From Lasiodiplodia sp. COLG20 (lineage: Eukaryota > Ascomycota > Dothideomycetes > Botryosphaeriales > Botryosphaeriaceae), in NCBI GenBank assembly GCA_009801085.1, contig VNWV01000004.1:2666001-2730000 (forward strand): a DNA stretch of 64,000 bases, written 5' to 3'. A program made the translations under genes and the position numbers. Shown in pieces: positions 1,319-35,558 of the stretch. How positions within the stretch are numbered: the first letter of the stretch is position 1; the number at the start of each line of letters is the position of its first letter. The notes below the pieces were generated by a model. That model ran no database searches. It had not been told where the DNA came from and saw only the letters and a list, made by a program, of their open reading frames with translations.

Positions 1319-1348
1319 GCAGCTTTAGCTCACTTGGGAGAGCGCCAG

Positions 1349-1405
1349 GTTAGTTTATCCAACTCGATCTTCCATCCTCGCAACATCACACTAACATCAC
1401 ACCAG
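1349..1405 (+). other. Extra 57-nt insertion in tRNA-Phe copy A, spliceosomal-intron-like
   Basis: Starts GTTAGTTTATC, contains CACTAACATCAC with a CTAAC branch-point-like box, and ends CCAG; exon context is CCAG before and ACTGAAG after. Its length is normal for a fungal spliceosomal intron; introns measured in this window run 49-63 nt. The same end sequences occur in copy B while the middle differs. GTTAGT and ACTAAC inside the element are also exact reverse complements, so a 6-bp helix recognised by the tRNA splicing endonuclease is an alternative reading. The splicing mechanism is inferred. Confidence 0.75.
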
Positions 1406-1412
1406 ACTGAAG

Positions 1413-1447
1413 TCCACTTCAGCCAAACATCACAAACTCTGTGCGGT
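1413..1447 (+). other. Canonical tRNA-Phe intron (35 nt), copy A
   Basis: Lies directly 3' of G37, as in known eukaryotic nuclear tRNA introns, and carries CTTCAG, which can pair with the anticodon segment CTGAAG (the A-I interaction used by the tRNA splicing endonuclease). The ends TCCACTTCAGCC and TGTGCGGT are shared with copy B. Confidence 0.85.
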
Positions 1448-1483
1448 ATCTGGAGGCACTGTGTTCGATCCACAGAAGCTGCA

Positions 1484-1555
1484 AGACTCTTGAACAAGTC
1501 TTACCGGTCTCAGACCGGTTGGAAGCCTTTCTTTTTTCCCTTTTTTTTTTTTTTT
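1484..1555 (+). terminator. Structured trailer and Pol III terminator of tRNA-Phe copy A
   Basis: Two hairpins follow the tRNA: AGACT/AGTCT (1484-1488 with 1497-1501) and ACCGGTC-TCA-GACCGGT (1503-1519). T runs come next at 1532-1537 (six) and 1541-1555 (fifteen). The same order occurs after copy B. The T runs fit Pol III termination; the role of the hairpins is unknown. Confidence 0.6.
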
Positions 1556-27310: not shown

Positions 27311-30300
27311 GACGCAGGCACGCGACTCGAGGGAGGTCGTCGGGGGGCTTTGGGGTCGGGGCTGGGGCTCGGTGCAAGATGTAGTAAGGACGGGCAGCTG
27401 GGGAGGGGAGCGGTAGGACAGAATGGCTAGATATACTTTGTCCTTGCATCTGGCGCAGCAGCCGCAGCTCGCGCAGCAGCAGGCAGAGCACACCACGCCG
27501 TGCGACCAGCTCCGTTGCGCGCACTGAGCGGTAGGCCGCTGGATGCAGATTTATTCTACAGCAAACTTATGGGGCCTGACTCGCGGCCGGGGCCAGGGCA
27601 CTGCCTCGCTTTTTGAAGCGGGCAGCGCCCTTGCGTGCGGCCGGGGGGCGTGAACCTTCTTTTCCCCAGTTGACCGCCTGGCCTCGGCACTTGGGCGTGC
27701 GCCTGCATTCGCGCGCTCGGGGAAAAGCGCTGGCGCAGATTCCGCCATCACGCCCGGGCCGCAGCACGCTGCACGCTTACATCAGGAGCCCACCGGCCGT
27801 TGCTTTTTCGGCGCCCACCAGCCTGCCAGCGGGGCTCCACGCCGGATCGTGCCCGCCTAGTGTGCAGAATCGGCGGTTGAGGGCAGACAGACGGTCGACG
27901 ATCGACGGCAGCGATGGCTGACATGCAGCCAGTGGGTGTGATGCTCGGGTGACAGCCCGCTGCCGCCGCGCAGGGGGCCGGGATGGCGACAAAGCCCGGC
28001 AGCCTCCCCATGCCCACCCGCCGGGGCCCTTGTCTCCCTGCAGCGTGTCAGCGGGGAAGCCCCACTGCCGAGATCCGCCTGCCAGAGCGCACAGCGTGCA
28101 CAACTTCGCTTAACGCCTGGGCTGAGACGGACGCGAAACGCCATGCTGGCCAACCCCTTCCAGAGCCGCTGGCGGAGCGGGAGCGCCCTCCCCCGCCGCC
28201 TAGGGCCCGCCGTGCGACGGAGCGGAACCGGAGGAATGCGGCGCAGGGCCACGCGCGCCTGCGATCTGCGATCCAGCGGTTCCAGCGCCTGCATGGAAAT
28301 TGGTGGCGGAGCGAGCGAGCCAGCTTGCCGGCGCTCTTCACGTCAGGCTGTGATGATTGTGCCCAAGCCATGGCAGATGCCGTCGCTAGGATAACCGTTG
28401 CGCTGGCTGCGGCGCTGCTCGACGATCGCCGCGGGAGGCCAGCGGGCCGGAGGTATGTCCGCCGCGGGCGGCTGGTCGCCTGGCCAGAAACGCCCCTGGC
28501 AGCCGCCGCTGCCTCTTCGCTGGGCGGGCGCACGTCAGCGCGGCAGGATCCTCGCTGCAGACGCAAAGCATGCTGCAAAAAGCAACGAGAAAAAGACGCA
28601 TGCAGAACAGGCGTTCGCGCTGGAGGCAGGTCGTCGGGCCGTGTCGCCTGGCGGGCGGATGAGGCTTGGGCAGCGATATTTACCGCGCGGACGCGCGCGC
28701 GGAAGAGCCGGAGCGGGCGGACCGGACGGCTCTGCACATCATCTTGGCCTTTTCGTTCAGGGGTTGCTTCGTCGTCGTCGCGGCCGCGCTGTCATGGAGC
28801 CCGGCGGGGTGGAAGCTCGGGGCGGGAGAGGGTCCCTTGACCTTAACCCTCCATCCGGGGTGGCAATTCACGTGTCTATCAGGAGAGACGAGGTAAAACT
28901 CGCCCTCGTCCCGCCTCGACTCCGTCAATCATCGCTTTTGTCTTCCCTCGGATGCACGTTCAACAACGCACACACACTATGCAGTGTGAACCCGTCCCGG
29001 CGGCGTGGACCGCACGCTGCCCTCCGCGGTGACGTCAGGATTCTGGCGGTGATTCGGGGCGACGTGGCTAGCTGCACGAAGATGGAGCGAGTGTTGGTGG
29101 AGCTCGGCGGACAGGCCACCGGGGATGCGGGAGCGGCTCATCAGTGCGCGGATGCAGGGACAGGAGCGCGGCGTGGCGGCTGCGTGCTGTGTCGCTTGCT
29201 GACTGCCCATCGTGGAGCCAGCGCCGCTGCAGCGCGAGTAGGATGCCACCTGTGCTTTAGGGTTAGGAGGGTGATGAAACGCGGTGGGTGGTTTGGGCAT
29301 GGACATCACACCATCCGAGCTGGGTGAACGTCGGCCATCCCCGCTTCCGCGCACCGCCTGCCCGGCGACTCAGCACCACCATCCGTTCCCGCTGAGATAC
29401 GCTCGAAAACGCAACTTCCCGCTCAGATCTGCCTCTCCTTGGCCTGGCAAGCCCCCCCGCCGCCTCCCGTCCGCGCTAGCACTGTCAGATTCGGCTGACT
29501 CTGGCCCCCGGCCCTCACCCCATCTCCCAGCGCCCTCCGCCCCCCGTCCGCGCCAGAAGGGGCAGGTCTGCCAAATGTCCGCCGGTCGAGCCCTGCATCT
29601 CCGCTCCGCCGCGTCCAACGGCCGTTGGACCTCGCGCACACGACCCGGCGCGCGCGAGCGGCGGCGACTCAGCATCCCACGCTCGGGTTTCAGGTCATTG
29701 CGCTCTATGCTTTCCACAGGAGCCGCTCCTCATCTGCCGTCGTCTACGCAAGCTCCGAGCCCTCTAGACCACCATTTGCCTAGACCGGATCGTCCAACAT
29801 GCTCCGGCGAGTTTAATCAGCCCTGAGACACACTACTCCTCCCCGTCTAAACGGAATCAAAAGCCTCGCCGCCATGGCAAACAACCGCCCTAGCGCCCTC
29901 TAGCTGCTCCTCCGCCTCACCCAAATCCTCGGGGCCAATCTAAGCGCCGGATTGCCCGCCACATACGGCTACACTTCGATCCCCCGTCATGATGCTTGCT
30001 GCCGAAATTCTCCCTACCTACCGCCGTTCTCTGCACCCTATCCGTTCATTCGGTTTCGACGAGAGCAGGACCGCCAAGCCACTCTAGCACCGAGTGCGCG
30101 GGCTCCAGGGGGCTGTTTTCCTGACTCACGTCCAGTCTCGACTCCCTCCAGCGCCTTGCCTCTTTGAAATGAAGCCCATGGTACGAAGCCGACAGCCTTT
30201 CCAACCCACGCTCCATGTGTGTTGTCCTCATTGGCTCCGCCGTGGCTCCCGCGCGCTATATCTACTGCAAGCCCTAGTGCCGCACCGCAGCTGGCCCCGC

Positions 30301-32475
30301 CACAGCAGAGTATCATGCTGCGTTGCGCAGAATCCCATTGGCGCCGTCCATTACACGGCCGGAACCACTCCTGGGCTGACCCTGCACGACGGAGCCTTCC
30401 TCTGTTCATTGGGTTGAGCTCATCACCCCCCTTTTCGTATGCTACACAGTCTCTCTACTGTTCCTTGCATCCGATACGAAAAGACTGCATGAATGCACTC
30501 TCTTTGCCGGCGTTGTCGTCTGGAGTCCGACTTTCCCGGTCCGTCCTACATCCCGGGTGCACCCCTCGTCGTGCGCGAGGCAGAAAACCGGACACAGGCA
30601 TTTCCTTTCTCGTTTGAGACTCTGGCTGCTCATCCTTCGCGTCTAGGCTTTTCCGGTTCCGTGCCCACATGAGCCGACGTCTTTACTGGATGGATCAGGA
30701 CGTGGAACATGCAGCCATAGCGGCCGCACCCAGATTACCACTTAATCTAATGCCAGGAGACATGCTTCCTTTGTGTGAGCCCCGACTATGTCCTCCGCTT
30801 CACATATGCCGGCGAAGTCCCTCGTGCAGCATTTATTTCAGGGACGTCGAACCGATGCGTTGGGACTGATGGTCTGTTTAGACGCCTCGGTGATACCGAT
30901 AGATCCGGACGCCTGCATAGCTTCAACCACCTTTTGGGCACGGATGGTCGGGCCTACGTACGAGAAAGGGTCTGCCCCTTGGGGACCAGTGGCCTTGCAA
31001 GTCTTAAGCGGGTAAGAGTCGCGCTCCCCCTTGTCCTCCGGCAAGTGCCACCCCCGCTTCAACCGCCGTCACGGCTGGAGAATACGAGATGCGGACTCCC
31101 GAGACATCTGTCACTTAGAGTTGGGGCAGTCGAACTGCGCTCAACTCGCTTTCTGTTGTCTCACCAGACGTGGAGGAAATGAAGCAGCAATGCTTTCCTG
31201 CCCAAGCCGCCACAGATCCAGCAGACTGGGTGCATCGGGCCACTATTCCCAAGCCACTGCTACCAAAATGGTCGCCATGCAGAACCCGATGCTCCTGACC
31301 CTGGTGCTTTTCACACCCCAGATTACGCAAAAGTCAGCACAATCAGCGACTTGGCGGCCAATCGGCAATGTTAATATCCACCATACGCGTGGCGCCGCTT
31401 CCCTTAAATGTTTCCAAGACTGATGACTGATACGGCCAGGCACTGACATCGACGATGACTACTACACGGGAAGGAAAGGCCCTCGCCACGCACTATCTTC
31501 TCAGCTCGTCTTACTAGAGATTAGCGAATGGAGGGCCTGAGAAGCCACACTGTCGTGGAGCTGGGCTGAAGGCCTCCCCCGTTGGATGGGATCACGAGCC
31601 TCATGCAACATGCAGAGGGCCAAAGACCATGATCGACCGGGTCGATAGCAGGGCATCGGTGATCAGGTGGCGGGAGCTAAACCGTGTTGTAGCGCCTATC
31701 CCCTGCGCGGACACGATTCCGCAACAAAGGGCCTGGTGATGCGGGGAGCCTGAAGGCATGCAAACCTGACAAGAGGCGGTGGGGAAACGGAAAGGAGCTC
31801 TACTGGCTCGGCTGCGTCTTCATCACATCCCCCTTTCGGCGAGCTTTGGGATCCTCAGCCTTGATAGCAGTCAGCTGCCTGATTTCTGCATCTACAGCCG
31901 TGCTTGATCCGCGATGACATGGTTCAGTCAGCTCACTTGTGGGCGGCTAAAGCAAAGGCGTGGATGCACTCATGCTCTACTCAGACCTGCTGTGCAGTCC
32001 CAACGCCTGCTGACCGCTGTTCTTGCATCCCCGAGCTATTTCTTCACATGATCGAGTGAGAAAACTGCGTACTTACCCTGGTATTCTCCTGCTTTCGAAG
32101 CACTCTGCCGTGGCGACTTCGCCGTGGCGAACGCGACATCGCACGGGCCGGTGTCAAAAACATGACTGCGGTGAATACATCAGCCATTGGATCAGGAAAC
32201 ACGCTCGTTGGCGTTGGGAGAGGTCACTCTACCGGTATTCTAGTAATGGTCTCCGAGCGATGGTGTCCGGAGTCACGCATCGGACATGCCCAACGAAGTG
32301 CGGCGGCGCAGCTGTTTTGCGCGGTCTCTGCTTATGGCTCCGGTAACAGACACCGCGAGACAGCGACCCGACTATTTATCGCCCCTCACGTTACGCCATC
32401 GCCATCACCACACTTCACAACACCTGAGCGCAGCGCATCAGGAGCTTTTGACGCGCGGTGGCTGGACAATCGAAG
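27311..32475. other. Gene-poor GC-rich stretch, right part
   Basis: About 5 kb with only shadow-like open frames; the longest (27983-28840, plus) is Arg/Ala/Gly-rich without a domain and overlaps an equally long minus frame. A palindromic TGACGTCA (CRE-like) occurs near 29031. A TATTTA box near 32374 lies about 100 bp before the esterase ATG and may be its promoter. Confidence 0.5.
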
Positions 32476-35392: not shown

Positions 35393-35422
35393 GCAGCTTT
35401 AGCTCACTTGGGAGAGCGCCAG

Positions 35423-35482
35423 GTTAGTTCATCTCAGCTCCCGCACCCGCCTGCCGAACACCCATCACTAACATCACGACAG
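35423..35482 (+). other. Extra 60-nt insertion in tRNA-Phe copy B, spliceosomal-intron-like
   Basis: Starts GTTAGTTCATC and ends CACTAACATCACGACAG. The ends match the 57-nt insertion in copy A, whereas the roughly 30 nt between them are unrelated and pyrimidine-rich. Conserved 5' splice site, branch box and acceptor with a free middle is the pattern expected of a spliceosomal intron. Confidence 0.75.
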
Positions 35483-35489
35483 ACTGAAG

Positions 35490-35522
35490 TCCACTTCAGC
35501 CAACAGCATTCATCTGTGCGGT
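35490..35522 (+). other. Canonical tRNA-Phe intron (33 nt), copy B
   Basis: Starts TCCACTTCAGCC and ends TGTGCGGT as in copy A; the middle differs in sequence and length. Confidence 0.85.
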
Positions 35523-35558
35523 ATCTGGAGGTACTGTGTTCGATCCACAGAAGCTGCA

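Follow-up and report, generated by a model that had tools for sequence, protein, structure and literature searches.

A tRNA-Phe gene of Lasiodiplodia sp. COLG20 carries, besides the ordinary intron at position 37/38, an insertion within the anticodon stem that, judged by its sequence, is very likely a U2-type spliceosomal intron in a gene transcribed by Pol III, a member of a group of similar introns that interrupt at least seven tRNA species. Textbooks assign the removal of nuclear tRNA introns to an endonuclease and a ligase and not to the spliceosome. Since every tRNA-Phe and every initiator tRNA-Met (iMet) gene that we found is interrupted by an mRNA-like intron, the fungus probably needs the spliceosome to make its tRNAs.

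The gene lies in the window, i.e. the whole stretch of 64,000 nucleotides that was analysed. A protein encoded near the end of the window is 90% identical over 99% to a Lasiodiplodia theobromae protein, the best match with a species name, and 95% identical to a further one, which fits Lasiodiplodia or a close relative. The original prediction had placed it at 1319–1483 and had proposed that removal of 1349–1405 and 1413–1447 restores a fully paired tRNA-Phe(GAA). The letters are exactly as described, and the gene without both insertions is a 73-nt tRNA with a full cloverleaf, which ARAGORN called as Phe(GAA). Insertion 1 is located between positions 30 and 31, inside the anticodon stem (tRNA positions follow the standard numbering and were assigned by hand). 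A second copy in the window, at 35393–35558, is also a tRNA-Phe gene with both insertions. The features of the two genes are:

1319..1348, + strand: tRNA-Phe exon 1, with the acceptor 5' strand and the D arm (A box), up to position 30
1349..1405, + strand: insertion 1, spliceosomal-type intron of 57 nt, 5' site CAG|GTTAGT, 3' site ACCAG|AC, common to all six tRNA-Phe genes found
1389..1395, + strand: branch-site motif CACTAAC in insertion 1; in all six copies exactly 10 nt separate it from the 3' end of the insertion
1406..1412, + strand: internal exon ACTGAAG of 7 nt, with the anticodon GAA at 1409–1411
1413..1447, + strand: ordinary tRNA intron of 35 nt at 37/38, with CTTCAG complementary to CTGAAG
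1448..1483, + strand: tRNA-Phe exon 3, with the rest of the anticodon arm, the T arm (B box), the acceptor 3' strand and A73
1483..1527, + strand: structured 3' trailer, with hairpins at 1483–1502 and 1503–1519 and AAGCC at 1523–1527
1532..1537, + strand: run of six T, likely Pol III terminator
35393..35422, + strand: second copy, exon 1
35423..35482, + strand: second copy, insertion 1 of 60 nt, GTTAGT ... CACTAAC (35466–35472) ... CAG
35483..35489, + strand: second copy, internal exon ACTGAAG
35490..35522, + strand: second copy, ordinary 37/38 intron of 33 nt
35523..35558, + strand: second copy, exon 3 with A73

Unspliced, the window gene was missed both by Rfam RF00005 at the gathering threshold and by default ARAGORN, and with introns allowed ARAGORN called it Arg(gcg) or Thr(agt). 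The same setting misnamed the tRNA-Phe genes of the genome as Thr, Arg or Ala and one iMet gene as Lys, and it missed the other three iMet genes. Three Leu(taa) calls (L048, L049 and L050) look by eye like Lys(CTT) genes in which the 37/38 intron was left in place. In the window itself, a tRNA-Ala with a 623-nt intron (29598–30310) appeared only when long introns were allowed and is almost certainly spurious. A 72.7-kb contig (G000:C47) is dense in tRNA genes, all on one strand among the matches listed, and includes a SeC(tca) call that is probably the Trp gene of a mitochondrial genome.

The assembly (43.5 Mb in 88 contigs) was searched with a D-arm pattern of the tRNA-Phe gene, TTAGCTCANTTGGGAGAGCGCCAG. 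With up to three mismatches allowed, it matched six places, all of them exactly, and none in the reversed control. All six genes (L009–L014, with L010 being the window copy) carry both insertions in the same layout, which bears on the question, raised with the original prediction, of whether every tRNA-Phe gene is interrupted: all six found are. Their exons are identical except for one variable-loop base in L010. Insertion 1 measures 54–60 nt and in each copy starts with GTTAG, contains CACTAAC followed by exactly 10 nt, and ends in YAG. Its interior has diverged, with a mean identity of 44% (range 28–61%, 15 pairs). Beyond the 3' trailer, no convincing alignment of the flanks of the six genes was found. 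The six loci thus look like old, separate genes in which the splice signals were kept. The second insertion had been described as a textbook 37/38 intron with an anticodon-pairing box; this holds for all six genes, as the 6-bp pairing with the anticodon loop is complete in the minimum-energy fold of every copy. On the 3' side, the genes also share a conserved trailer in which two small hairpins are followed by AAGCC and a T run. Among its 12 predicted pairs, three are changed on both sides and one is broken in one sequence; in the window copy, no Rfam match over the trailer was obtained at E values up to 5.

Intact, insertion-free tRNA-Phe genes had been named as the finding that would speak against a functional spliced gene. 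The part of this search that was run favours the original prediction: nowhere in the assembly does the uninterrupted arm, GCGCCAGACTGAAG, occur exactly, and neither the exact-arm search nor the D-arm census revealed an insertion-free tRNA-Phe gene. With one or two mismatches, GCGCCAGACTGAAG matched 363 places compared to 272 in the control, counted as matches irrespective of context.

Interrupted genes were not confined to tRNA-Phe. Among the 3' trailers of other tRNA genes we met an apparent tRNA-Lys gene adjoining a tRNA-Thr gene, which proved to be an iMet gene whose D stem is interrupted by an insertion of 59 nt. Its anticodon arm, used as a search pattern, gave eight places, namely four exact ones, which are the iMet genes, and four with three mismatches, which were left out. 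In all four iMet genes found, an insertion of 54–59 nt at 24|25 contains GTAAGC ... ACTAAC ... YAG; these three signals are fixed, the interiors being 53% identical on average (range 41–67%). Splice signals were no part of the selection in the tRNA-Phe and iMet searches. For other tRNA species, we scanned for CTAAC...YAG with a downstream B box, or for GGTTCR|GTNNG with CTAAC, and picked the tRNA cases by reading the matches. The three scans yielded 36, 12 and 38 places compared to 44, 30 and 58 in the reversed controls; with totals below the controls, most matches are chance or mRNA. In the first scan, 30 of the 36 places were read with their flanks and six as matched letters only. The 12 places of the second were read as matched letters, six of them with flanks, and the 38 of the third as matched letters, some incomplete, with two new ones read partly with flanks. 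One match of the second scan, L114, was rejected as a tRNA case, as it looks like an mRNA intron. A further pattern range gave 17 places, one of which overlaps the iMet gene L068; the other 16 are outside our count of insertions.

These scans revealed T-loop insertions between positions 57 and 58 in Ala(AGC) (L105 and L110; L105 and L102 are one gene), Pro(CGG) (L111 and L112) and Arg(CCT) (L113), as well as an insertion between positions 13 and 14 in Arg(TCT) (L120) and one between positions 9 and 10 in Ala(TGC) (L121). In total, 17 insertions of 50–60 nt were found in seven tRNA species at five positions, a partial census covering CTAAC branch sites and, for Rfam scoring, 63 of 1009 first-look candidates. 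After removal of the insertions, ARAGORN called the six tRNA-Phe genes, the four iMet genes and Arg(CCT) L113 as expected, and Ala(AGC) L105 and the identical Pro L111 and L112 after correction of the 37/38 boundary. The two genes whose last bases lie outside the fetched DNA behaved differently: Arg(TCT) L120 was called tct only as a circular sequence and not in the linear run, and the mature form of Ala(TGC) L121 gave no ARAGORN call.

Uninterrupted relatives of some of these genes are present as well. Eight Ala(AGC) 3' ends were found by an exact 15-base pattern, six with an uninterrupted and two with an interrupted T loop, and once the insertion is taken out, the T arm of L105 is identical to that of uninterrupted copies, e.g. 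L103. The T loop is likewise uninterrupted in two Arg(CCT) genes, L058 and L059. The recurrence of the 57|58 insertion in three unrelated tRNA species suggests that introns spread between tRNA genes, and reverse splicing or exchange between near-identical T arms may be proposed as routes. Two Ala(AGC) loci, L106 and L110, show an intact 3' half and no recognisable 5' half. L106, which is counted among the six uninterrupted T loops, has a long inverted repeat (seen by eye) at the place of the anticodon arm. None of four short 5'-half motifs occurs in the 1432 nt upstream of L110, and this 3' half may be a dead copy. The Ala(AGC) loci L103–L110 also have a conserved trailer, different from that of tRNA-Phe, whose hairpin resembles a T arm (e.g. 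cctggttcaattccagg, by eye); it occurs with and without the T-loop insertion.

The insertions share one set of splice signals. All 17 have a 5' GT(A/G/T)AG, a CTAAC whose branch A lies 10–12 nt from the insertion's end, and a final YAG, CTAAC being part of the search pattern for seven of them. For four genes the 5' end, and for three the YAG, lay outside the search, and all of these fit the signals. Under a composition null, a random insertion would combine GTNNG, the placed CTAAC and the final YAG with a probability of about 2e-6. According to the part of PMC5832005 available to us, the branch consensus of fungi is RCTRAY, 6–36 nt before the 3' site. The purine preceding CTAAC in this consensus is present in 13 of the 17 insertions and absent in four. 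Ten insertions begin with GTAAG and one with GTGAG, and GTTAG is the pentamer of the six tRNA-Phe genes. The usage of 5' sites in mRNA-type introns was counted upstream of 108 CTAAC...YAG sites in 307 kb (306999 bases) of fetched DNA with tRNA genes excluded, a sample enriched for such sites as some loci had been fetched by that very pattern. GTAAG (13 observed, 2.8 expected) was enriched there; for GTATG, 9 were observed and 1.5 expected, and for GTGAG 5 and 2.3. GTTAG showed no enrichment (0 observed, 1.5 expected), which marks the 5' site of the tRNA-Phe genes as unusual at +3. The same sample held GTCGG eight times against 1.2 expected, for which we have no explanation. Genome-wide, GGTTAGT...CTAAC...YAG occurs at 34 places, including five of the tRNA-Phe genes, compared to 54 in the control. 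Complementarity to the 5' end of U1 amounts to 8 of 9 positions in five tRNA-Phe genes, 7 of 9 in the sixth and 6–7 of 9 in the other genes; the exon CAG, the best exon part of the set, appears to compensate for the unusual +3. In the six predicted tRNA-Phe precursors the branch site is mostly unpaired (at least 0.78 per base). The minimum-energy fold of L010 pairs GTTAGT with ACTAAC, several other tRNA-Phe precursors are also predicted to have most of their 5' splice site in pairs, and some branch-site bases of the iMet genes L065 and L068 are only 0.43–0.67 unpaired.

In the five genes with a T-loop insertion at 57|58, the native B box is cut in two. At 12–15 nt into four of these insertions there is GTTCGAATC or GTTCGATCC, each an exact B-box match, and at 11 nt into the fifth there is a match with one mismatch. 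Among the other 12 insertions there is no exact match and a one-mismatch match in two. This contrast (4/5 vs 0/12) gave a Fisher probability of about 0.002, calculated by hand with genes treated as independent, which paralogues are not. We infer that the intronic B boxes could stand in for the promoter box that the insertion breaks. No insertion has more than four T in a row, consistent with read-through by Pol III. A candidate intronic A box for Arg(TCT) was dropped, as it was judged indistinguishable from chance.

The anatomy, the conservation, the census of copies, the mature cloverleaves and the match to splice signals, all read from the letters themselves, point to the following course of transcription and splicing. 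Pol III would transcribe the genes from their A and B boxes, with the intronic copy serving where the B box is split. Nuclear U1 and U2 would then recognise GT(A/G/T)AG and CTAAC, and the spliceosome would take the intron out as a lariat, thereby restoring a foldable pre-tRNA. Only then would the tRNA splicing endonuclease be able to excise the 37/38 intron, and ligation of the exons would follow, with ACTGAAG kept as a 7-nt middle exon. This order of the two splicing reactions is suggested by the fact that the endonuclease reads the folded tRNA body: as insertion 1 parts the strands of the anticodon stem, the enzyme should act after its removal. In the minimum-energy folds, the pairs of the anticodon stem are absent from all six tRNA-Phe precursors with insertion 1 and return in three of the six once it is removed. 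The folds are thus in line with insertion 1 leaving before the 37/38 intron, suggestively so; as the stem is not recovered in the other three, fold energies are weak evidence.

The insertions might instead be substrates of the tRNA splicing endonuclease at odd positions, read by way of a bulge-helix-bulge or of a GTTAG:CTAAC helix. Such introns are not without precedent: red-algal tRNA genes have up to three non-canonical introns of 11–69 bp, as stated in the part of PMC3978253 that was accessible, and insertions of 3–24 nt are described for nucleomorph tRNAs in the corresponding part of PMC4090602. GTTAG, moreover, is no usual mRNA 5' site in this genome, and it is perfectly complementary to CTAAC in all six tRNA-Phe genes. 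The original prediction had proposed the helix between GTTAGT and ACTAAC as an enzyme-only alternative, and the minimum-energy fold of the window copy indeed contains it. Otherwise, the helix found little support: it occurs in none of the minimum-energy folds of the five other tRNA-Phe precursors, its ensemble probability is 0.11 in L010 and 0.04 in L009, with the remaining four precursors giving 0.00, and in the 11 insertions with GTAAG or GTGAG the pentamer pairs with CTAAC at four of five positions. Being perfect only in tRNA-Phe and reaching at most 0.11, the helix was rejected as a general signal. A strict bulge-helix-bulge was defined by two 3-nt bulges, a 4-bp helix and flanking helices, with boundary shifts of up to 3 nt that keep the product. 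This geometry is common background and is partly given in PMC3978253. The strict motif was found in none of the 17 insertions, and this reading was rejected too; Pro L112 alone has all four central pairs, without an inner helix. Endonuclease substrates would also not be expected to share GT...CTAAC...YAG at five unrelated positions. Taken together, we consider removal of the insertions by the endonuclease improbable.

It is less probable still that the interrupted genes are dead copies, with intact genes elsewhere supplying tRNA-Phe and tRNA-iMet. Sequence may be missing from an assembly in 88 contigs, the Rfam census scored 63 of the 1009 first-look candidates, the near matches to GCGCCAGACTGAAG (one or two mismatches) were counted as such, and Ala(AGC) L110 is possibly dead itself. 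Against this stand six of six tRNA-Phe and four of four iMet copies found interrupted and the absence of the exact uninterrupted tRNA-Phe arm. Furthermore, the tRNA-Phe and iMet exons fold perfectly, and the signals are kept within diverged insertions, which is the opposite of decay. We give almost no credence to the view that the window gene is a tRNA-Thr(AGT) or tRNA-Arg(GCG) gene with one long intron. This is what ARAGORN returns for the window copies when introns are allowed, but it throws away the exact ACTGAAG loop of tRNA-Phe and its CTTCAG partner in all six copies, the call varies by copy (Ala, Arg, Thr), and the genome has genuine Thr(AGT) genes whose body is different. The reading was rejected as an ARAGORN artefact. 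Group I and group II introns have a large catalytic core; they were rejected given the 50–60 nt of the insertions and the lack of a fitting Rfam match. At the gathering threshold, the sole Rfam match in the window was an ordinary tRNA, and at 1250–1620 two weak, unrelated sRNA matches were obtained. The spliceosomal reading, which had been put forward for one gene, is thus supported by 17 insertions with the same signals in seven species and at five positions, by the conservation of these signals as opposed to the diverged interiors and by uninterrupted paralogues of two species. As the tRNA-Phe and iMet genes found, both for essential tRNAs, are all interrupted, their insertions have to come out, provided that there are no other copies.

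Among the publications listed by our searches, mostly open-access and judged by titles and abstract openings, none reported spliceosomal introns in nuclear tRNA genes, nor did the accessible parts of PMC6461891, PMC8216456 and PMC5499181. The intron type and the Pol III host are already known in combination from U6. According to the portion of PMC10484740 at hand, fungal U6 snRNA genes, e.g. of S. pombe, contain mRNA-type introns and are thus Pol III transcripts like the tRNAs described here; U6, however, belongs to the spliceosome, where its intron is thought to have arisen by reverse splicing. The hosts here are tRNAs of at least seven species, some of which also carry an endonuclease intron. 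The U6 match found in the present genome is continuous, covering model positions 1–105 within 100 nt (47 of 2400 candidates scored). Fungal U3 snoRNA genes offer a second likeness: their product is likewise small and structured, and they contain normal GT-AG introns with RCTRAC branch sites; U3 and U6 are named as the sole RNAs of this class in which interruption by an intron is known to be frequent (PMC5832005, in the part available). U3 differs, as far as that source goes, in being no tRNA and in having neither a second splicing system nor a split promoter box. Intron 2 of the tRNA-Phe genes, with its anticodon-pairing box, is a canonical eukaryotic 37/38 intron of the kind processed by the splicing endonuclease and ligase. 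Introns outside 37/38, as seen here, are shared with Cyanidioschyzon, where they often interrupt A or B boxes (PMC3978253), and with nucleomorphs, where they lie in the D, anticodon and T arms (PMC4090602). In the accessible parts of both papers they are discussed as bulge-helix-bulge-type introns or very short insertions, whereas the insertions described here lack the strict motif and have spliceosomal signals. A pattern scan for relatives gave no matches in viral contigs and, in genome contigs, five bacterial records, which we take as chance. What appears to be new is the tRNA as a host class, in several species, with double splicing and a split promoter.

These genes also bear on annotation, as the ARAGORN results for tRNA-Phe and iMet are a warning that tRNA finders miss or misname genes interrupted in this way. 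They moreover provide a test bed for intron origin, with occupied and unoccupied sites in paralogues and a mature product known to the base, and for the rescue of an intron-split promoter from inside the same intron. If the insertions are spliced as proposed, an uncapped Pol III transcript would be a routine substrate of the spliceosome. It is likely, though held with less assurance than the nature of the intron, that the spliceosome is an essential tRNA processor in this fungus, with all iMet and tRNA-Phe passing through it, tRNA-Phe by way of two unrelated splicing systems, one after the other, and with promoters inside introns. Translation initiation and the decoding of phenylalanine would then depend directly on the spliceosome.
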